A stretch of DNA of 64,000 nucleotides, taken from Pseudomonas rhizophila. GTDB lineage: Bacteria > Pseudomonadota > Gammaproteobacteria > Pseudomonadales > Pseudomonadaceae. Position 1 is the stretch's first letter, and the number at the start of each line of letters is the position of its first letter. The stretch lies in NCBI RefSeq assembly GCF_003033885.1, contig NZ_CP024081.1:1581980-1645979 (forward strand), written 5' to 3'. Position numbers and translations under genes: made by a program. Of the stretch, positions 22,385 to 33,284 are shown piece by piece. The notes below the pieces were generated by a model. That model made no database searches, was not told the DNA's origin, and saw only the letters and a list, made by a program, of their open reading frames with translations.

Positions 22385-24475
22385 TTATAGAGCAAGATAG
22401 CCGTCCTCAATCATCTGTCCCCGTAGTTTCCAAAGTTCTATACACTGACGTTCTGTAGGAAGCTTATGGGGGATTTGAGTTGCGATGCTCAATAGACTAA
22501 CCTGCTTGGGCGAAAGTTTCCCCTTCTTGACCCCCCAATTTAATAGACGTGTCCATTCCGCGCCGGGCAAGTCTACGACCATAATTTGAAGTTGTATGCC
22601 ATCATCTGTTTTTTGCATCGTCTTCGATTTTTTTCCATCCTCAACAGAGAGGCGCACATCCTGAAGAAAATCATCTGAGTTTAAAACTAGCTTTACTTTG
22701 GTGTTCTTTACTTGTTCCCAACAGGCTTGCATTTTTGCCCATTCAGTGACGTTATCCTTGGGTCTGTCAGGATCGGTAAGCACGAGAAAAACTTTTTCTG
22801 CAATTATAGATAGTTGGTCGCATAGTGCCTGCGGAACAGCCTGTAGGTCCCAAATAGCTCTGAAGTTGAATTGCTTGCCCAGTGCGTCCTCAGATATCAA
22901 ATTATGAAGCTTAGCGATCGAGTAGGTTACGATGTTTGCACGATAACCCCCTTGGTACCATATCTGTTGGCTAACTAGAGACTCCGTTTTTCTGAAGATT
23001 ATAGCTAGAGCAACTATGCTGCGAAAGTACTCTTCGTTATAAGTCTTGCCGTCCGATGTCCATGATTTTGAAATGATGTCAGCAAAAAATATAAAGTTTT
23101 TTTGCGCCCCCATGCTTACTCTATGGGGTTGCTCGCGCCAACTATTTTCATATTTTGCAACATCGGTTTTTGTAAATAGCTGGTTTTTTGGGTTCTGTAC
23201 TAAGAAGTGGTTTTTTTGTGCGCTTGTGAGCTTGGCTTGTTCATTAAAATACTGACCTCTAGCTCGCTCATAAAACCAATGTGTTCCAAATTGTGCCCCA
23301 GTTTTGGGCGAGGTGAACAGTCGTCGAGAGAATTCTTGAAGGCGAATATGAAACGGGTGATTGGAGAAAAAGTCTGCATCGCTAACTTTATTCTGGCTAT
23401 TCGCGTAACGTGCAATTTCCGGAGTTAATTCCCCAGCTTTTTCCGGTGGCAGAACAGAAAGTTTCATCTGCACCATAACTTTTGAGAGGTCCAAGCAGTC
23501 TTTACGTGCAGTACCACCTCTCTTTGCAAACGCTAACGATGCCGTGGTTTGTCCTCCGTTCACAATTTGAAGGTTCACCGCGCTTCGAATACGCATCCCC
23601 CCCCCCGCATCCTCCTCTAGTACAACGTTTTCAGCAGTCGCCGCAATTCCATTATTGAATGCAAAAAACATCTCTGGCTGATTACGAATCGTGTTTTGTA
23701 TTGCAGCGTTCACCTTGCCTTTTGTACTCAAAAAAGTTCGAACATTACCTTCAAGCAATCGGCTGCCGTAAATGTCGTATATATCCGCTAAAGTGTCGCC
23801 GGGAATCATGCAAAGATAAGCGCTATAGTCCCCCTGAGATTCGGCAGCAGCAAGGCATTTCAGACCGCTCGTTTCGTTTGTCGAAAAATCAACAACAAGA
23901 TCATCCCGTCCAGTAGCTGAGATATAAGCTGAATGAAATCGTCCGATATCCCAGATATGGAATTCGACAGGAGTACCGCTCACGGCATCTTCAGGCCATC
24001 CTTTCTGACGAGTTTTTAGCATGCCATCGCTGACGAAATAGAAACGGTATTTCGTTATTTTCGAATGCCAATTCATTAAGTCACATGCGAAGCCAAAGCC
24101 TGGTTGGCTTTCGTCTACACTACCGTCAGTTAAATTACCCTCCAATGCCTCTTCAAGAAAGGCCCGCAAATCACCGAGTGCAGCCTTTGCATCGGAAGTA
24201 ATAAACGAGGGCACTTCATCCTCATTAAAAAAGTCAGCTATCAAAAGAGCCATAGAGTTGTCGGCATCATCGAATGAATAGCCATCCACTCGGAGTCTTT
24301 TGCGCTTTCCATTGACGCCCTCAAATCTGCACATTTCGAAGGAAAGAAGCTCCTCCGCCTCTACCAGCCTCTCTCCGCACTCCTCCACAAATGTGGTGCG
24401 AATAAAGTCGCGCGAAGATTCGGCTTTTGAACGGACGGTTTCTATGATGTCTTTATGAAATGTGAGGAGATCCAT
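22385..24475 (-). CDS. AIPR-family protein (abortive infection phage resistance)
   Basis: 696 residues. AIPR hallmarks are visible: 'AFNNGIAATAENV' (about 272-285) and 'NLQIVNGGQTTASLAFAKRG' (about 301-320), then 'YANSQNKVSDADFFSNHPF'. The family is found in phage-resistance loci, often beside Z1 and PD-(D/E)XK genes, as here. Codons about 290-293 contain an uninterrupted run of ten G (plus strand 23597-23606); gain or loss of one base would end translation soon after, removing more than half of the protein. Last gene of the operon, 16 bases after the DUF4420 gene. Base composition is AT-richer than the flanks. Confidence 0.9.
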   Translation of the reverse strand: MDLLTFHKDIIETVRSKAESSRDFIRTTFVEECGERLVEAEELLSFEMCRFEGVNGKRKRLRVDGYSFDDADNSMALLIADFFNEDEVPSFITSDAKAALGDLRAFLEEALEGNLTDGSVDESQPGFGFACDLMNWHSKITKYRFYFVSDGMLKTRQKGWPEDAVSGTPVEFHIWDIGRFHSAYISATGRDDLVVDFSTNETSGLKCLAAAESQGDYSAYLCMIPGDTLADIYDIYGSRLLEGNVRTFLSTKGKVNAAIQNTIRNQPEMFFAFNNGIAATAENVVLEEDAGGGMRIRSAVNLQIVNGGQTTASLAFAKRGGTARKDCLDLSKVMVQMKLSVLPPEKAGELTPEIARYANSQNKVSDADFFSNHPFHIRLQEFSRRLFTSPKTGAQFGTHWFYERARGQYFNEQAKLTSAQKNHFLVQNPKNQLFTKTDVAKYENSWREQPHRVSMGAQKNFIFFADIISKSWTSDGKTYNEEYFRSIVALAIIFRKTESLVSQQIWYQGGYRANIVTYSIAKLHNLISEDALGKQFNFRAIWDLQAVPQALCDQLSIIAEKVFLVLTDPDRPKDNVTEWAKMQACWEQVKNTKVKLVLNSDDFLQDVRLSVEDGKKSKTMQKTDDGIQLQIMVVDLPGAEWTRLLNWGVKKGKLSPKQVSLLSIATQIPHKLPTERQCIELWKLRGQMIEDGYLAL
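23597..23606. repeat. Mononucleotide tract C10 (G10 on the coding strand) inside the AIPR gene
   Basis: Ten consecutive C on the plus strand encode the end of Ala and Gly-Gly-Gly in 'EEDAGGGMRIRS'. The tract is in frame as given. Such runs are classic slipped-strand phase-variation sites. Confidence 0.9.
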
Positions 24476-24491
24476 ATGACTTACCCGTGCG

Positions 24492-25424
24492 CTATATCTG
24501 AAAAGGGATGCAGCTTTGGAGATTTAGTTTGTATTTGACACTACGAATTCCTGGTGATAGATCTTGTGGGCGAATACAGGGAAAACCAGCGCTGACTTTA
24601 TAGCGGGTTACTTTTCCTAGAGTCATTACCCACGCGTCATATTCGGGGCGTATAACATAGCCAGATCTTAGTAGCGCACTTTCAAATGCTGAATACGTAT
24701 CAAAATCTGATTTAATTGTTCTTCGAATTTCATCAATCAACTGATTCAGTGTGAAGCCAGCTTCCGTATCCTCAGATCCACTACCGAGCTCGATAACAAT
24801 GAGCTCCAACTCTCGTTGGGTGAAGTCAAGTTGTCTTTCTGAGGCTATTATAACCTCATTCGCCGCAGGCCAAATTGTTTTGACCTCCCACGCGTTTTTT
24901 TCAAATTGGAAGTCCTGATCAGCTCGATCGGGTCCTTTCCAGCTCTGAACTGCCGCTGATGCGCTAATAGTCCCAATTAATGTCTTTAGGTGAAGAAGCT
25001 CACCAGTCAATCCTCGAACTTGCCCTTCGGTCAATAAATCGAAATTCCCCCGTTCAAATAGCAAGCGCCAGCTAACAAGGCGAGCTAAAACAAATGGAAG
25101 GCCTCTAGATTTCTCCCCGCATTGACGTGAGGATTCAATTAGGTCTCCGCAGAAGAGCAAGAATAACTCGGAAAGCTCAGGTTTTTCTAATATGAAAAGT
25201 AGAGACCATTGGTTATCTTCTCGGAGCACGCTGTGAATTTTTACTGATTGGAGTTCCAACTCAATACTAGGGTTTTTTTGTGTAATCAACAGGAGTGTGA
25301 GCCGGCCCATTGAGTCCACACCTGCGTAAAAATCGAGTAAGTGCTCCGCGTCAATTCGGCGAAAACCGGATCCGACACCTTCCGATTTAATCGCCGTCCA
25401 GATGGATTTAACCTTATTCATCAT
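24492..25424 (-). CDS. PD-(D/E)XK motif protein (DUF4420-like)
   Basis: About 310 residues. Several ATGs lie in the overlap with the Z1 gene (25442, 25430, 25424, 25421); I chose 25424 because GAGGA stands eight to nine bases upstream. The nuclease-like core is 'GLTGELLHLKTLIG' (Glu about 142), 'PDRADQDFQFEKNAWEVKTI' with Asp and E-x-K near 171-182, matching the PD-(D/E)XK fold. It is the likely DNA-cleaving subunit of the system. It lies between the Z1 and AIPR genes, an association described computationally for MORC/Z1 restriction-type islands. Start uncertain by up to six codons. Confidence 0.87.
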   Translation of the reverse strand: MMNKVKSIWTAIKSEGVGSGFRRIDAEHLLDFYAGVDSMGRLTLLLITQKNPSIELELQSVKIHSVLREDNQWSLLFILEKPELSELFLLFCGDLIESSRQCGEKSRGLPFVLARLVSWRLLFERGNFDLLTEGQVRGLTGELLHLKTLIGTISASAAVQSWKGPDRADQDFQFEKNAWEVKTIWPAANEVIIASERQLDFTQRELELIVIELGSGSEDTEAGFTLNQLIDEIRRTIKSDFDTYSAFESALLRSGYVIRPEYDAWVMTLGKVTRYKVSAGFPCIRPQDLSPGIRSVKYKLNLQSCIPFQI

Positions 25425-28152
25425 CTTCATCGTCCTCATCATCGTTGTCGTCTATGGAGGGATTATCTCCAGACAAAATATTTCTGAGTTCGACAAGGTT
25501 AATACGATAAGCGACTCGGTGACTCGACACGTTAAGAGAGGGGAAGCTTAGACCTATTGCCACCAGCGCATCACAATCGGGCGGAAGCGTATAAGCGATT
25601 TCCTCATTGCTCTCATCTCTCGGTTGAATCAAATGGATCAGCAGCAGCGGCGCCTGCCTTACAGCAGCATATGCTTTACCTGGTATTGTTTGAACGCTTT
25701 TCTTGGACTCGCTTCGGAAACGAAGGTCTGCTGCCTGAACTTCAGTTTCAGATAATCCCACTTTCTCATCACCTGCAGAACCCACTCGAAGTTTGTTTCC
25801 GTTAACAAGCAAGGCTTTGATACTTTCATCAATGGAGATTTTCCGAATTCGCCTTTTTACTTCTATGTCACCAACAAATCTGATTGAATCTCCGCTACCT
25901 GTTGGTAAAGCCACATCCCAGTGATCGAGTTTGTCGTCATTTGATTTCTCGATAAATTCTGCCAAGCTCGATGTTTGTAGTTTGATGCTAAGGGGATGGT
26001 TGACAAATGCCTTTAAGAATTTTACAACCAATTGCTTCGGTACGGATCGCCATACCGGAAAGGAGCCATTCTCAGGTTTTGCAGTTGGGCACGAGATCAC
26101 TGAACGTACGAAACTTTGTGCTTCCTTATAGTTGGCGGTAACTATAGAAGGGTCTTTCAATAATCTAGGCGACTCTAAACTTTCTTCAGTTATAGAAATG
26201 ATTTGTATTATTTCGTCCGAGTCCCTCATTTTATTTCTGGCTGTAATGAGTAGTGACTCAGGGTGAGACCTTACGCGCAATCCAAAGTCAATTGGTTTAA
26301 GGCGCGAGTTCTGCATTCGACGCACTTCATTACGTAGTTCGTCGGTGGCCTCCGAAATATGGGCATACCAATCAGCGGTTTCCTCAGTCATCCAGATTTT
26401 ACACAGATCTTCATAGCCAACGCGATAGCCGAACCACCGCCCCATTTGAAGCAACGCGTCGTACATCTGAGTAGATCTGTAGAAATAACTGACACACAGT
26501 CCTTCTAACGTTAAACCACGCGCCAAGCTATTACCGCCTACCGCTATAACTCTTAGTCCATGTTCTTTGTAGGCGGTGTAATCTAGGCTAGCTGGTCCAC
26601 TTTTTTGGTTTACGGCCGTAGTTTGAATCGGTAGTGTGGAGGCCACAAGCTGGGCTTGGACTTGGCCCCAAGATACCTCCAAATTGGAAAAATGCCGTTG
26701 AAACTTATTAAAAAGAGTGCTTATGGTTTGGTTTTGTATCGCCTCATCGAAGGACAATGATGCATAATTCTGAATGTCACCCTGCATCAGGCGGACCTCA
26801 TGGTCCAAGATATCTCTTACTTGATCTTGTATTAGTGTGAAATGACTCACGTTTACTAGCATGGATCTGTGCTTTGGCATACTCGCACGAATATCCATCA
26901 GTGTATTAACCAAAAAAAAGCACACAACAGCGTCTATTAGAGAGGGGGGAACACCCTCTATGTTGCTATCAGAGGTTTGCCCACGAGGAAAATATTCTTC
27001 CGCGTCGTGAATTACCTCTAAGCATTTCAAATCAGATGTTTCGCTGAAAATCCGGCTTGCCCCAACATAGTTTGTAGGGGCTTCCAAGGTGTAAATAAAA
27101 TCACGAGGAAATAAATCATCCCCCTCAACATTGTTCGTGGTGTCGGGATTTATAAATACATTCGCGAAGGGAGTGGCGGTGAATCCAACGTAGCTGGATC
27201 TCGGAAAAACTTTTAGCAACCCTCGTATGGCCGAATTTATCGCAGTTGCTTTTTTGGGGTTTGTATTAATGGACGCATTATCTGCTTCGTCATCAATCAG
27301 CAGTAGGGGGATGTCAATATTTCCACCTGCACTTGCATTATAGTTAACCAGCCAGTCGGCAAGATTTTCGAGAATCCGCTTATTTTTTTTTACTACAAGG
27401 AGTACCGGTTCCCTATAGTCTCTTAACCTAAATCCTAACTGATTTACAGTTGTTGCCTTGAAGTCGCCTACTGTAGATGTAAAAACCCCTGCTGACCTCG
27501 CAGCGTCAATTAATCCTACCCCGATTTCTTTTCTATGGCGTTTTCTGTTATTAACGACGCCCGAACTATCAAGCCCAACGAAGCCCGCGTCCAAACGTTC
27601 TTGGGTTTGCCGTCTCAAACTTTCTAACGTGCCCGTCAACAGAATCACTAGCTTATAACCGGCATCTGCTGCTTTGCAGATTAGACCAGTGTAATTTGAC
27701 GTCTTCCCCGACTGAACGTCGCCCATTACCAAGCCCCGACGAGGCCATCCGGTGCGACCCGATGGATCTCCCATCAAATCCAAGATCTCATCTGTAACCT
27801 TGTCTAGAGAATTAACGACCTTGGGGCCCCAACCTTGTTTCAAAAGGTCTGTTTTATAGCGATTCCAATAAAATGGGTCGATTTCGGCTTTTCGTGCTCT
27901 TAACCATGGGTTTTGTTCGTCGTAAACACAGTCTCCCAATCCCATGTCAACTGTAAGGGCCTCATGAAGTCGCTTAATAACAGTTTCAAACTCCTCGTCG
28001 GTGACTGTATAGGGTGGGATTGACCGAAGAGTGGAGGCTAAGTCTAAAATGCCTCCCTCGGTTGGAATCCCATCCACCGTCAGCGCCGTGATAACACCTA
28101 GTTCCAAACGTCGAGCGTTCGCTGACAATACCTTCCTGGAAGCCTCACTCAT
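25414..28152 (-). CDS. Z1-domain superfamily II helicase-like ATPase
   Basis: 912 residues. ATPase motifs in order: Walker A 'VMGDVQSGKTSNYTGL' (about 142-152), motif II 'LLIDDEADNASINTN' (about 285), motif III 'GFTATPFANVF' (about 325), motif VI 'LLQMGRWFGYRVGYEDL' (about 567). The Z1 family accompanies restriction-like and abortive-infection systems and may translocate on DNA. The C-terminus is a 12-residue acidic tail (DDNDDEDDEDDE) encoded where the next gene begins. The start overlaps the ATPase stop as ATGA. An A9 tract occurs near codon 255. Confidence 0.92.
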   Translation of the reverse strand: MSEASRKVLSANARRLELGVITALTVDGIPTEGGILDLASTLRSIPPYTVTDEEFETVIKRLHEALTVDMGLGDCVYDEQNPWLRARKAEIDPFYWNRYKTDLLKQGWGPKVVNSLDKVTDEILDLMGDPSGRTGWPRRGLVMGDVQSGKTSNYTGLICKAADAGYKLVILLTGTLESLRRQTQERLDAGFVGLDSSGVVNNRKRHRKEIGVGLIDAARSAGVFTSTVGDFKATTVNQLGFRLRDYREPVLLVVKKNKRILENLADWLVNYNASAGGNIDIPLLLIDDEADNASINTNPKKATAINSAIRGLLKVFPRSSYVGFTATPFANVFINPDTTNNVEGDDLFPRDFIYTLEAPTNYVGASRIFSETSDLKCLEVIHDAEEYFPRGQTSDSNIEGVPPSLIDAVVCFFLVNTLMDIRASMPKHRSMLVNVSHFTLIQDQVRDILDHEVRLMQGDIQNYASLSFDEAIQNQTISTLFNKFQRHFSNLEVSWGQVQAQLVASTLPIQTTAVNQKSGPASLDYTAYKEHGLRVIAVGGNSLARGLTLEGLCVSYFYRSTQMYDALLQMGRWFGYRVGYEDLCKIWMTEETADWYAHISEATDELRNEVRRMQNSRLKPIDFGLRVRSHPESLLITARNKMRDSDEIIQIISITEESLESPRLLKDPSIVTANYKEAQSFVRSVISCPTAKPENGSFPVWRSVPKQLVVKFLKAFVNHPLSIKLQTSSLAEFIEKSNDDKLDHWDVALPTGSGDSIRFVGDIEVKRRIRKISIDESIKALLVNGNKLRVGSAGDEKVGLSETEVQAADLRFRSESKKSVQTIPGKAYAAVRQAPLLLIHLIQPRDESNEEIAYTLPPDCDALVAIGLSFPSLNVSSHRVAYRINLVELRNILSGDNPSIDDNDDEDDEDDE

Positions 28153-29615
28153 GACTCATATTCCTCAATGATTTTTTTTGTCAGCGCCGGATACAAATTA
28201 AATGGTTCAATCAAGTGGAGGGACATTAGCAGTTGTTTTCGAGCCGGTGAGTCCAAAGGCATATTGCTCAGAAGATCGGCGATCATGCCGTTAATGCTTT
28301 CGACTGAACTGTCGTTGGCGAAGTCAGATCTGATATCGCTCGCCATCCGATTATACAAGGCGTCTGCGGGGAAGGAGCTTTCGATAACGCCTAGGATCAG
28401 ATTGAGCTGCATTCTCCCTTCTTTATCGAGAGACTTAGAAAACTCTGAAATTAGTGGGTGCTTTCGATTGATATCGAATCGGACCCCTGATCTATCGATA
28501 ACTTCGTTCCATCCAGTAGCGACCTCAGAGTCAGAGACTTTTCGGCCTTTAAAAGTGATGGTTCGCCCACTTACGGCTCTAATTCTATCTACGGTTCGTT
28601 TCAGATTTAATCGGACTATCTCAGGAGGGTGGGCAGCCGATTTTTTTATGTCTAAGGTCCAAAGATGATCGAGCGCATTTGGAATGTCCACCCGAACGCG
28701 CGCAAGTTTGCTCAGCTCATCTTTTCGCGCCAAGCGAAACCATGTGCCCCAAATGATTAGTCGTCTATTTCTGTAAATATAAAAACCCTGCTGGCTTCGA
28801 ACTCCCTCGGTTCCCCCAACAAGTTGTGTGTCGTTATTACTAAGTTTGCTTATGTGAGGCAAGATAAAGGGTTTGACCACGACCTTCTTGCCCTCTACGG
28901 AAAAAATTTCCTCATCCAATGGCTGTGTGGCTTTGTGATGGGTAAGGAACGGGTCAAACGGCACAATTAAAGAGCCGTTCAAAGCTATTGAAATTTTAGG
29001 TTTGCTTCCCTCTTTAACTAGGAATCTATGGAAAACAAGTGATAAATGCTCGCGAGCGGTCAACATCTTCATGCCTAGCGCACTTTCTGGATCTGTCTCT
29101 CCAATAAGTAATTTATCTAAGTTTTGCCACAATACGATTGTTCCAGTTTTCTGCAACGAAAGCTGATTAAAATGAGGTAGAGCTTGGTATTCTGATGCTT
29201 CTAGCTGAAGCATTACCCAGGCACCTTTTTCGATAACGACATCAAGGTCCCAGCAATAGGCACTTATGTTCGCATCTTGTTTCGAAATAACTGTCATGCG
29301 CCGGCATTGAGATATGGAAGCGGTTTTTAATCCTAAGCCGTAGCGGCCCATATCTTCTCCGCTTCTTTCTAAAAGGGGATTTTTACTGCCGTGTCGCATC
29401 GCGTTCTGTAGCGCCTCATGCGACATACCTTTTCCATCGTCTATAACCGCGATGTAAGGAGTATCGTTAGGGCGGAACTCGATATAAATCTCTTTTGCGT
29501 GGGCGGAGATACTGTTATCTATCAAATCCGCCACGGCCGAATCCAATGTATATCCAATAGATCGCATTGACTCGAGCAAGGAGGCTGCGTGGGGAGGGTG
29601 TTGAACCTCTTTCAT
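28149..29615 (-). CDS. GHKL (MORC/MutL-like) ATPase of the defence operon
   Basis: 488 residues with Bergerat-fold motifs: N-box 'AVADLIDNSISAHAKE' (28-42), G1 'IDDGKGMSHEAL' (58-69), G2 'MGRYGLGLKTAS' (89-100). This is the MORC/MutL/Hsp90 arrangement rather than a sensor histidine kinase; no phospho-acceptor or membrane region is seen. It probably dimerises on ATP binding and acts as a DNA clamp or conformational switch for the Z1 and nuclease proteins. GGAAGG lies eight bases before the ATG, and a small ORF ends on it (ATGA). Confidence 0.92.
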   Translation of the reverse strand: MKEVQHPPHAASLLESMRSIGYTLDSAVADLIDNSISAHAKEIYIEFRPNDTPYIAVIDDGKGMSHEALQNAMRHGSKNPLLERSGEDMGRYGLGLKTASISQCRRMTVISKQDANISAYCWDLDVVIEKGAWVMLQLEASEYQALPHFNQLSLQKTGTIVLWQNLDKLLIGETDPESALGMKMLTAREHLSLVFHRFLVKEGSKPKISIALNGSLIVPFDPFLTHHKATQPLDEEIFSVEGKKVVVKPFILPHISKLSNNDTQLVGGTEGVRSQQGFYIYRNRRLIIWGTWFRLARKDELSKLARVRVDIPNALDHLWTLDIKKSAAHPPEIVRLNLKRTVDRIRAVSGRTITFKGRKVSDSEVATGWNEVIDRSGVRFDINRKHPLISEFSKSLDKEGRMQLNLILGVIESSFPADALYNRMASDIRSDFANDSSVESINGMIADLLSNMPLDSPARKQLLMSLHLIEPFNLYPALTKKIIEEYES

Positions 29616-29851: not shown

Positions 29852-31477
29852 TCAGCTGATCATGGAGGCCACATTCCTTTCGGGACGCTGAGAGGAGATT
29901 CTACCCTTGATAATACGCTCGACTACTCTCGCAATTTTACTTGCAAGTAGAGGAGGAACGGCGTTGCCGACTTGATGGTATTGTTGTGTGCGATTTCCCA
30001 GAAAAAAATAATTATCGGGAAAGGTTTGTAATCTGGCCGCTTCCCTTACAGTCAAACTGCGACATTGATTAGGGTCGTAATGAATGAAATAGTGTCCATC
30101 TTTCGAGATGTGGCTGGTTATGGTAGAAGAGTGCTGGCGATCAATTTGAACCCGAAAACGATCACTAAATTTACCACTTTCCCAGTTTTTATGGTCAGGT
30201 GCTAATCCAGGAAGATTGAATTCTTGATGACCCTTTGGAGAGTAGTGATGGGCCTGCGCGAAGACTGACGCATAAATATAGCGCTTAAGATCAGCGCTCA
30301 TGTGGCTTCGAGCTTCGTGGTTGAGCCAAACGCCTAATTTAGAGTCTGTAAGCCAAGAATTTAGTTCGTCCGAGTTTACTGATCCACTCCAAGAGCTGGT
30401 TTTTTTAACGCGTAGTCCTCCATTGTTTAAACTTCCGCCCGAAAAAGAATCTCGAAATATCCTAAGTTTCATTTCTAAAGTGAGATCCTTTTTTTCGGAC
30501 GAAATAAGATCCCTATGTAGGGTTTCGAGATGTCTCAAAATCTCGTTGCACCACTTGTCTGGGGTGTCATTTCCTCTGGAGAGTGTACTGCGCAGTGGAG
30601 GGAGGTTTCCAAGAACGTCCCTAACGGTGACAGGTGGAGCGGATGCAAGTTTGTGTTCGCTTATGCCGCCAACGTAATCCTCAGATACGCCTACTAGTAT
30701 AACTCTGTGGCGACCTTGCGGAATGCCGTAATCTTCTGCGCGTATTATAAAATTATTAAAATCTATAGAGTCTGGCTCCATCCCAGATTCATAGATGTCA
30801 TCTGAAACTAAAGAGCAGATTTTATATTTTTTTCCGGTTCCGTTTTTTATCCCCAGCGCCGCATCAGGGTCGGCAAGGTCTTGGAGTATTTGGGGGAAAA
30901 TTTGCGTGCCACCAACTTTTGAGGAAAGAATTCCTTTGACGTTTTCCATGACAAATACAGCAGGGCGCTTTCTCTGGATTATTCGCAGGTATTCCCTATA
31001 TAAAAAGTGACGATGATCATCTTCCGCTTTGTAGTCGATATTTCCTTTGTTGCGCGCGCGCCCAACAATTGAATAAGCTTGACAAGGAGGTCCACCAATT
31101 AATACCCAAGGCTTACTGGTATCCAGTCGTTTCTCCAGAATCCGGTCTAGTTCGGCATTTCCTTCTACGCTTCCGAGTTTAATTTGACGAGCTTCGGTGT
31201 CGGCATGTTGCCATTCTTTATAACTGTCTGAGCTCCAAGGTTGTGCCACACCAGCCGTTTCGCAGTAATAATAATAATCTTCAAGGGCTGCTGGGTTGTA
31301 TTTTTTTAGCGCTCGATAAAATGCGCGAAGTCTCAGTGTGGATCGAGCGAACGGATCCATCTCGGCAGAGACTAATATATCAAAGCTTCTGCCCCCACTG
31401 AGTGAAGAGAACCCTTCACCTAGGCCGCCGGGGCCGGCAAAGAGATCCACGACCTGTAAAGGGTTGTCACAATTCAT
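29852..31477 (-). CDS. dcm: DNA (cytosine-5) methyltransferase
   Basis: 541 residues with the ordered m5C-methyltransferase motifs: I 'VVDLFAGPGGLGEGF' (9-23), IV 'IGGPPCQAYSIVGRA' with catalytic Cys132, VI 'FVMENVKGI' (175-183), VIII 'GIPQGRHRVILVGVSE', X 'QYHQVGNAVPPLLAS' near the end. The long stretch between VIII and X is the target-recognition region. It would methylate host DNA to protect it from the linked nuclease. Its start is 28 bases from the divergent vsr start. A 236-base gap separates it from the ATPase gene downstream. Confidence 0.94.
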   Translation of the reverse strand: MNCDNPLQVVDLFAGPGGLGEGFSSLSGGRSFDILVSAEMDPFARSTLRLRAFYRALKKYNPAALEDYYYYCETAGVAQPWSSDSYKEWQHADTEARQIKLGSVEGNAELDRILEKRLDTSKPWVLIGGPPCQAYSIVGRARNKGNIDYKAEDDHRHFLYREYLRIIQRKRPAVFVMENVKGILSSKVGGTQIFPQILQDLADPDAALGIKNGTGKKYKICSLVSDDIYESGMEPDSIDFNNFIIRAEDYGIPQGRHRVILVGVSEDYVGGISEHKLASAPPVTVRDVLGNLPPLRSTLSRGNDTPDKWCNEILRHLETLHRDLISSEKKDLTLEMKLRIFRDSFSGGSLNNGGLRVKKTSSWSGSVNSDELNSWLTDSKLGVWLNHEARSHMSADLKRYIYASVFAQAHHYSPKGHQEFNLPGLAPDHKNWESGKFSDRFRVQIDRQHSSTITSHISKDGHYFIHYDPNQCRSLTVREAARLQTFPDNYFFLGNRTQQYHQVGNAVPPLLASKIARVVERIIKGRISSQRPERNVASMIS

Positions 31478-31505: not shown

Positions 31506-31913
31506 GTGGATGTTGTAGATAAAGAGACCAGGTCGAGGATGATGGCAGCAATAACCGGCAAAAATACGCAGCCTGAGCTTGCGTTGCGCCGGTTCCTTCA
31601 TGCCAATGGTTACCGCTTTCGCCTGCACCGCAAGGACCTCCCAGGGAAGCCTGACATTGTAATTCCCAAACTACGGACCTGTATATTTGTACATGGATGT
31701 TTTTGGCATCGCCATGCGGGGTGTCGGTACGCTACTACACCTAAGACCCGGAGCGAATTCTGGGCAGCAAAATTTTCCAGAAATGTTGAGAGAGACCTCG
31801 AAAATGTTTACGCCTTGAGGTCCCTCGGCTGGAGGGTTATTACCATTTGGGAGTGTGAGATCAAGCGAGGTTCCGAATGCCTTTCTCAGCTGCAACACGC
31901 CCTTCAGGAGTAG
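31506..31913 (+). CDS. vsr: Very short patch repair endonuclease Vsr
   Basis: 135 residues starting at a GTG (AAGG eight bases upstream). Family signatures: 'RSRMMAAITGKNTQPELALR', 'LPGKPDIVIPKLRTCIFVHG' with the catalytic Asp in KPD, then 'CFWHRHAGCRYATTPKT' with metal-site His/Cys and 'WECEI' at the end. Vsr nicks T:G mismatches formed when 5-methylcytosine deaminates, so it maintains the methyltransferase's target sites. It is transcribed away from dcm; its promoter must lie inside the dcm 5' region. Confidence 0.95.
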   Translation: MDVVDKETRSRMMAAITGKNTQPELALRRFLHANGYRFRLHRKDLPGKPDIVIPKLRTCIFVHGCFWHRHAGCRYATTPKTRSEFWAAKFSRNVERDLENVYALRSLGWRVITIWECEIKRGSECLSQLQHALQE

Positions 31914-32437: not shown

Positions 32438-33169
32438 TTAGTCGAACACCGGCGGTCTCCGTTTGTTGAGGGTGGACCACCAGAACACCCAGCCGATTAC
32501 CCGGATGTGTTGCGCTTCGATCTGTTCGGCGCTGAAGACCTCGTCAGGATACGCAGCACAGTTATGGCTACGCAGGCGTAGCCGATTACCGGGAATGCGG
32601 TGCAGGTATTTGATGCGCAGCATGCCGTCGTGCTCAAGCGCATAGATATGGCCGTCGACGATTTGGGTCAGGCCGCGGTCGATGGCGAGGGTGGAGCCGT
32701 CTTCGATGCGTTCGGCCATGCTGTCGCCGACCATGGTGGTGCAGATGGCGTCGCCGGGGTCGATTTCCAGGGATTCTAGGTGGCTGCGGGGCAGGCGGAT
32801 GGTTTGGTCGGGGATTTCGATGATGTGGGTTTTGGTTTCGCCGGGGGCGATGGGGGCTTCCTTGTAGAGGGGCAGTTCGATGTCCGTGGTTTCTTGCACG
32901 CTGTAGACGCCATCGTTTTCGGCGGCTTCATAGGTGATGCCAGGGCCCAGGCCCAGTGGGGTCTGCGGGCCTTCGCCGGTGGCGAGCCATTGCGGGCTGA
33001 CGGTCAGCAGGCTGGCGATGGAGTAGATGCGCCCTGGCGGGATGCCACGGTTGAACCAGTTGTTTATGTGCTGGGATTTCACGCCGTATAACTTCGCGAA
33101 GTCGGCGGATCGGATATTCGCTTCTTTTAGAAGGGCTCTGAAGCGGTCGCCACTGGAAAGTATTTTCAT
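32438..33169 (-). CDS. S24-family (LexA/phage CI-like) transcriptional repressor
   Basis: 243 residues from the ATG at 33169. Residues ~5-55 form a helix-turn-helix ('RSADFAKLYGVKSQHINNWF'); the C-terminal half is an S24 peptidase domain with Ser in 'TMVGDSMAERIEDGS' and Lys in 'GMLRIKYLHRIPG', so the Ser-Lys dyad is kept. No Ala-Gly or Cys-Gly pair is present in the linker, the usual self-cleavage site. The gene is not inside a visible prophage. AAACGG half-sites around its promoter suggest autoregulation. Confidence 0.85.
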   Translation of the reverse strand: MKILSSGDRFRALLKEANIRSADFAKLYGVKSQHINNWFNRGIPPGRIYSIASLLTVSPQWLATGEGPQTPLGLGPGITYEAAENDGVYSVQETTDIELPLYKEAPIAPGETKTHIIEIPDQTIRLPRSHLESLEIDPGDAICTTMVGDSMAERIEDGSTLAIDRGLTQIVDGHIYALEHDGMLRIKYLHRIPGNRLRLRSHNCAAYPDEVFSAEQIEAQHIRVIGWVFWWSTLNKRRPPVFD

Positions 33170-33284
33170 AAACGGAAAGTTTAGGGGCGACTGTGTTTTC
33201 GGCAATAAACAAGTCGTGCAAATATATAAGACGATCTTTCCGTTTGCAGGATTTGAAAGGGGCGGGCTAAACGGGGTTAAACGG
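33170..33284. promoter_or_regulatory. Candidate operator cluster of the S24 repressor
   Basis: AAACGGAAAG (33170-33179) touches the start codon and recurs inverted as CTTTCCGTTT (33236-33245); TAAACGG recurs twice more in tandem (33268-33274 and 33278-33284). Four AAACGG-type half-sites within 115 bases fit repressor binding. No reliable -35/-10 was assigned. Confidence 0.45.

Follow-up and report, generated by a model that had tools for sequence, protein, structure and literature searches.

A G10 tract in the AIPR gene of an Mza-like operon of Pseudomonas rhizophila as a probable hypermutable site

A 64,000-nucleotide stretch of the Pseudomonas rhizophila genome (NCBI RefSeq assembly GCF_003033885.1, contig NZ_CP024081.1, positions 1,581,980 to 1,645,979; referred to below as the window) carries a predicted defence operon, the last gene of which encodes an AIPR protein and contains an uninterrupted run of ten G residues. 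This tract is probably (with a probability of roughly 0.64) a young, lineage-specific hypermutable site, making AIPR phase-variable in practice. Sequence comparison indicates that the tract is likely to have a history of slippage, and the AIPR gene is probably inactivated and restored at an unusually high frequency.

Direct reading of the window letters identified ten consecutive C residues on the + strand, corresponding to G10 on the AIPR coding strand (Table 1). The position of the run confirmed an earlier note, made from the letters of this DNA, which had placed ten in-frame G residues at about codons 290–293 of 696. The tract codons read Ala-Gly-Gly-Gly, in frame with the AIPR open reading frame. 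No other G/C run in the window is as long: the next in length are three runs of 6, and runs of 7–9 are absent. A first-order Markov model predicts 0.007 G/C runs of at least 10 within the 9.3-kb low-GC island containing the operon, and 0.21 within the whole 64-kb window. Synonymous shuffling, with the five operon proteins and their codon usage fixed (and the glycines therefore taken as given), gave a longest G/C run that reached 10 in 6 of 5000 shuffles. The GC content of the AIPR gene is 44.8%, compared with 59.1% for the window, and the gene can be called AT-rich, as in the earlier note, relative to its own genome. The tract is located 917 and 1209 nt from the two ends of its stop-to-stop frame.

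Comparative analysis was performed with one genome per species. The AIPR gene of the nearest relative, genome G160 (98% protein and 95.5% DNA identity), contains G7 at the tract site, and this three-G difference is the sole indel in the aligned genes. Tract length thus differs between close relatives, in a single comparison in which both lengths are in frame. In genome G332 (89% amino acid identity), the closest apart from G160, the run is interrupted (GCGGGCGGGGTG) and the turn is encoded by the mixed codons GCG GGC GGG; codon use at this run in homologues was a check proposed in the earlier note. The extra Gly residue corresponds to a gap in all 44 other homologues aligned (chosen from 120 matches listed). 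The dN/dS values obtained for the five operon genes in comparison with G160 were 0.05–0.09, and by this measure all five are under purifying selection.

No genome nearer than G160 was found: 6 of 293 genomes around the source genome (self included) and 5 of 293 around G160 (G160 included) gave matches, two of which, in each search, were shorter than 50 nt. A family-wide draw of 298 genomes gave 5 with a match at E≤1e-100, counting the source genome itself; identity was 35–40% in the rest. Plasmid and phage records contained no match to the 9.1-kb operon in a megablast search, and tblastn of AIPR against plasmids returned 95 records, all below 60% identity and carrying no allele information. 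A scan of viral contigs revealed six stretches fitting a pattern, none of which encodes a relative. A search with the C-terminal part of AIPR returned mostly full-length proteins (best 120 of 8000, looked over). The AIPR gene of Pseudomonas tremae ICMP 9151 contains a G8 run at base 1937 (codon 646), late in the gene, which may be a second, unrelated slippery site. In Pseudomonas sp. NA-150 the AIPR gene appears to be in two pieces of 216 and 473 aa, the result of an independent break at about residues 217–223, away from the tract.

The consequences of changes in tract length were read in silico for lengths of 6 to 14. Full-length protein was obtained only with 7, 10 and 13 residues, and all six non-triplet lengths in this range truncate AIPR at about 298–325 aa, with the alternative frames ending no more than 35 codons from the tract. 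The gene therefore contains a long, pure coding repeat whose length changes cause a frameshift and truncation, as in genes subject to slippage-driven phase variation. Of the 125 invariant alignment columns, 84 lie after residue 290. In the predicted structural model, the tract residues form the turn of a β-hairpin, between strands 283–288 and 294–300, and the length of this loop varies from 16 to 20 residues across homologues (114 of the 120 matches listed were measurable). Internal restart at an ATG at codon 294, just past the tract, was considered and rejected: G160 has ACG and G332 has GTG at this position.

The mutability of such a run can be estimated from P. aeruginosa. In the available part of a mutation accumulation study of this species (PMC4702332), G:C homopolymers accounted for 96.3% of 108 indels in mismatch-repair-deficient lines, where the rate of change of a 9-bp run was 0.13 per generation; indels overall were 230-fold rarer in the wild type. 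Division of 0.13 by 230 gives a scaled repair-proficient rate of roughly 6e-4 per run per generation. The authors of that study propose that G:C homopolymer runs act as genetic switches (PMC4702332). MutS and MutL of the analysed genome gave full-length model matches with no stops, and their frames are intact.

The 5.95-Mb genome contains 21 G/C runs of at least 8 (18 of eight, one of nine and two of ten). The second G10 (G000:C1:1709093-1709102; L054 1501-1510; L073 9094-9103), located outside the window, sits at a reading-frame break: in this gene of about 490 aa, the open frame differs between the two sides of the run. Matches were detected in 12 of 149 genus genomes: self, five in which most of the gene was covered and six with short matches. 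In all five of the longer matches the run is interrupted at the corresponding site and the frame is open across the match. The frame break fits slippage at the second G10 in this genome. An intact homologue (L062) gave no Pfam, NCBIfam or PADLOC match, and no match to the gene was found in the five AIPR-bearing relatives G160, G332, G367, G056 and G172. Next to this gene (L073 418-13388), the + strand encodes a TM0106-family RecB-like nuclease/helicase, and the opposite strand encodes a type I HsdR, an HsdM-like N6 methyltransferase and a Schlafen/AlbA_2-HATPase_c_4 protein with an additional match to a PADLOC pAgo model. The genome thus has another region rich in restriction genes some 100 kb away from the Mza-like operon.

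These results suggest the following course of events. A turn with mixed codons, like that of G332, would have become a pure G run in the P. rhizophila lineage, and its length would then have come to differ between sister lineages (G7 and G10, a three-base difference, both in frame), with slippage as the presumed cause. Because long G:C runs slip at a high rate, ordinary replication is expected to generate cells with tracts altered by +1, −1 or −2, as well as revertants. In an off-length AIPR gene the reading frame would shift ahead of the NGGQT motif, giving one of the short products described above. Since AIPR is the last gene of the operon, all the genes preceding it, the methyltransferase included, would stay on while AIPR toggles, and off cells would presumably lose defence.

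Some observations weigh against this interpretation, and others against a dedicated switch. To the latter belongs the finding of the pure G10 in only one of the 48 AIPR genes examined, no other gene of this set having a G/C run above 8; the tract is not conserved across lineages. Off-frame alleles were not detected: none of 113 shorter homologues retrieved in an N-terminal search carries either of the predicted off-frame tails, a weak test, because in the tract region all 113 are distant from the present gene. The evidence for the tract comes from one genome assembly of this species. In the P. aeruginosa study, only one wild-type indel occurred in a homopolymer, and the authors were unable to say whether the G:C bias holds in the wild type (PMC4702332). 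The seven wild-type repeat indels were all single-unit, and those of the repair-deficient lines averaged 1.11 bases (PMC4702332), so a three-base difference would need several steps or one rare event. The frame break at the second G10 could also be the result of ordinary decay or an assembly error.

The frequency of long runs in the genus has to be considered as well. G runs of at least 10 are present in 183 of 199 Pseudomonas genomes (own included), with a median of 3 and quartiles of 1 and 5, compared with 2 in the present genome. Such runs are therefore ordinary in the genus, and the genome is unremarkable; what stands out is the placement of the tract deep in a long gene, as only 2 of 30 sampled genus runs were flanked on either side by 200 nt or more of a stop-to-stop frame that itself measured 300 aa or more (mechanically defined frames). 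The rarity ascribed to the run in the earlier note, which concerned an AT-rich gene, does not extend to the genome as a whole. In two genomes, G107 and G157, the number of such runs reached 59 and 131, respectively, representing real repeats or assembly trouble. The central claim of that note, a phase-variable switch, is partly supported: the in-frame pure G10, the slippage-type difference from G160 and the truncation at non-triplet lengths speak for it. The idea of a maintained switch is not supported, given the restriction of the tract to a single one of the AIPR genes examined, the missing off-frame allele and the commonness of long G runs in the genus.

A switch maintained by selection is nevertheless a possible, if minor, explanation. 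The tract would then be a contingency locus, with mixtures of AIPR-on and AIPR-off cells having an advantage where phage pressure alternates with self-toxicity. The last-gene position would spare the methyltransferase, the turn accommodates the extra glycine, the run is pure though synonymous codons were available (as judged by the shuffling test), and its depth within a long frame is seldom equalled among the sampled genus runs. In addition, homopolymer phase variation is established in type I and III restriction-modification (RM) systems, according to the available parts of PMC12707154 and PMC11868660. The distribution data count against selection: besides the lack of conservation and of off alleles, the nearest relative has only G7 at the site and its genome is without any G run of at least 10. 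A more specific and unlikely form of this proposal regards the tract as a selected contingency switch, with AIPR as the putative effector of an Mza-like RM system of non-classical type. Slippage would cut AIPR between the predicted nuclease domain and NGGQT; off cells would still methylate their DNA and may retain a nuclease fragment that is free and unregulated, or inert. The population would then consist of armed and disarmed cells, both of them self-protected.

Homopolymers of such length are error-prone in sequencing, and the true run could be shorter or longer than ten, its in-frame length in the assembly being partly luck. The frame break at the second G10 is compatible with such an error, which is nonetheless rather unlikely at the AIPR site, given that ten is in frame and that G160 has G7 at the same place; a pure run at this position is therefore real in the lineage. 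Of the 18 G8 runs of the genome, nine have 60 nt or more to either side within a stop-to-stop frame of 300 aa or longer. This gives no sign of systematic breakage at eight, an observation with little bearing on runs of ten. It is improbable that the tract is a neutral codon expansion, in which repair stabilizes the tract and the turn tolerates the extra glycine without harm. The variable loop length among homologues and the intact MutS and MutL frames would accommodate this view, but the mutability of G:C runs in repair-deficient Pseudomonas, when scaled to the wild type (PMC4702332, available part), makes stability at ten unlikely. Programmed transcriptional or ribosomal slippage, yielding two AIPR products from one DNA length, is very improbable. 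Long homopolymers can indeed slip RNA polymerase or ribosomes; in the present case, the alternative frames end close to the tract, and the AIPR genes compared at the DNA level, apart from that of G160, have mixed codons here. A hypermutable site of recent origin thus remains the preferred interpretation of the AIPR tract.

The genetic organization of the region is summarized in Table 1. The AIPR protein scored above the Pfam gathering cut-offs for AIPR (PF10592; 332.4 bits, cut-off 25) and AIPR_N (PF22879; 124.9 bits, cut-off 28). Its N-terminal part (residues ~1–189) is predicted to form a restriction-endonuclease-like domain, and the middle part (~211–364) is weakly predicted to be ParB-N-like. 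Model matches to MzaB, MzaC, MzaD and MzaE occur in this order, together with a DNA methyltransferase, in one operon. This agrees with its earlier designation as a defence operon, for which phage protection is a prediction from sequence, and the gene order places AIPR as the last component, as the note had it. Since the MzaE and MzaC matches (368.4 of 1050 bits and 523.3 of 1500 bits, respectively; these two proteins were scanned) fall below the NCBIfam equivalog cut-offs, the system is referred to as Mza-like. No MzaA match was found among 25 listed matches of the methyltransferase, for which 55 families matched in all. A peptidase S24 protein gene (32438-33205, −) adjoins the operon; its helix-turn-helix match is just below the cut-off, and the product may be a LexA or CI-like repressor.

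Table 1. Position of the G10 tract and of the genes of the Mza-like region within the window (CDS, coding sequence).
Feature	Position	Strand	Remarks
G10 homopolymer (C10 on +)	23597..23606	-	CDS 870-879 of AIPR gene, codon 290 (third base) to 293
AIPR gene, MzaE-like, 696 aa	22385..24475	-	Pfam AIPR_N 29-181, AIPR 241-568
DUF4420, putative PD-(D/E)XK family protein, MzaD-like	24492..25442	-	Model matches
Operon gene between MzaD-like and MzaB-like genes	25414..28152	-	
GHKL/HATPase protein, MzaB-like	28149..29615	-	MORC or paraMORC type by gene company alone (context: available part of PMC2292703)
C-5 cytosine DNA methyltransferase	29852..31477	-	First operon gene; 236 nt before next gene
Vsr mismatch endonuclease	31506..31913	+	Divergent from methyltransferase

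Phase-variable restriction systems are well known, and in most of them a type I or III gene carries a simple-repeat tract. If the AIPR tract really switches, it would add an AIPR/Mza-like system of a Pseudomonas lineage to this group, one in which only the last gene toggles and methylation stays on, and it would permit a direct test of bet-hedging as payment for a costly defence. If it does not, the tract is a clean example of background homopolymer growth mimicking a switch. Frameshift switching also occurs in BREX (pglX) and similar defence genes, i.e. in a newer type of defence system, whose genes differ from those of AIPR/Mza-like operons. No report of a phase-variable Mza or AIPR gene was found among the matches listed from the open-access literature (subscription papers being outside this scope), nor was an open-access paper containing both "Mza" and "MzaE". 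The Mza model descriptions among the matches listed mention no tract. In comparison with Mza as defined in PADLOC and NCBIfam (MzaABCDE), the present operon shows the MzaB–E order plus a methyltransferase, at scores short of the two equivalog cut-offs. P. aeruginosa homopolymer hotspots resemble the tract in that G:C runs are the sites of indels; they differ in that the run-level rates come from repair-deficient lines, and defence genes are not treated in the available part of that study (PMC4702332). In MORC/paraMORC RM neighbourhoods, GHKL ATPases are accompanied by superfamily II helicases that share a conserved C-terminal domain, and by restriction-fold proteins, cytosine methylases, Vsr and AIPR (PMC2292703, available part). 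The window has counterparts of these partners, with an ATPase assigned to no MORC subfamily; phase variation is not mentioned in the available text of that paper. The closest parallel in behaviour would be the phase-variable RM systems (phasevarions), which likewise carry a coding repeat in a DNA-defence gene, in which a change of length causes a frameshift that should be reversible. Those are type I and III systems, often switched via the methyltransferase (PMC12707154 and PMC11868660, available parts), whereas here the tract lies in the AIPR gene, the methyltransferase is outside the switch, and length variation is known between two species-level genomes rather than within a population.
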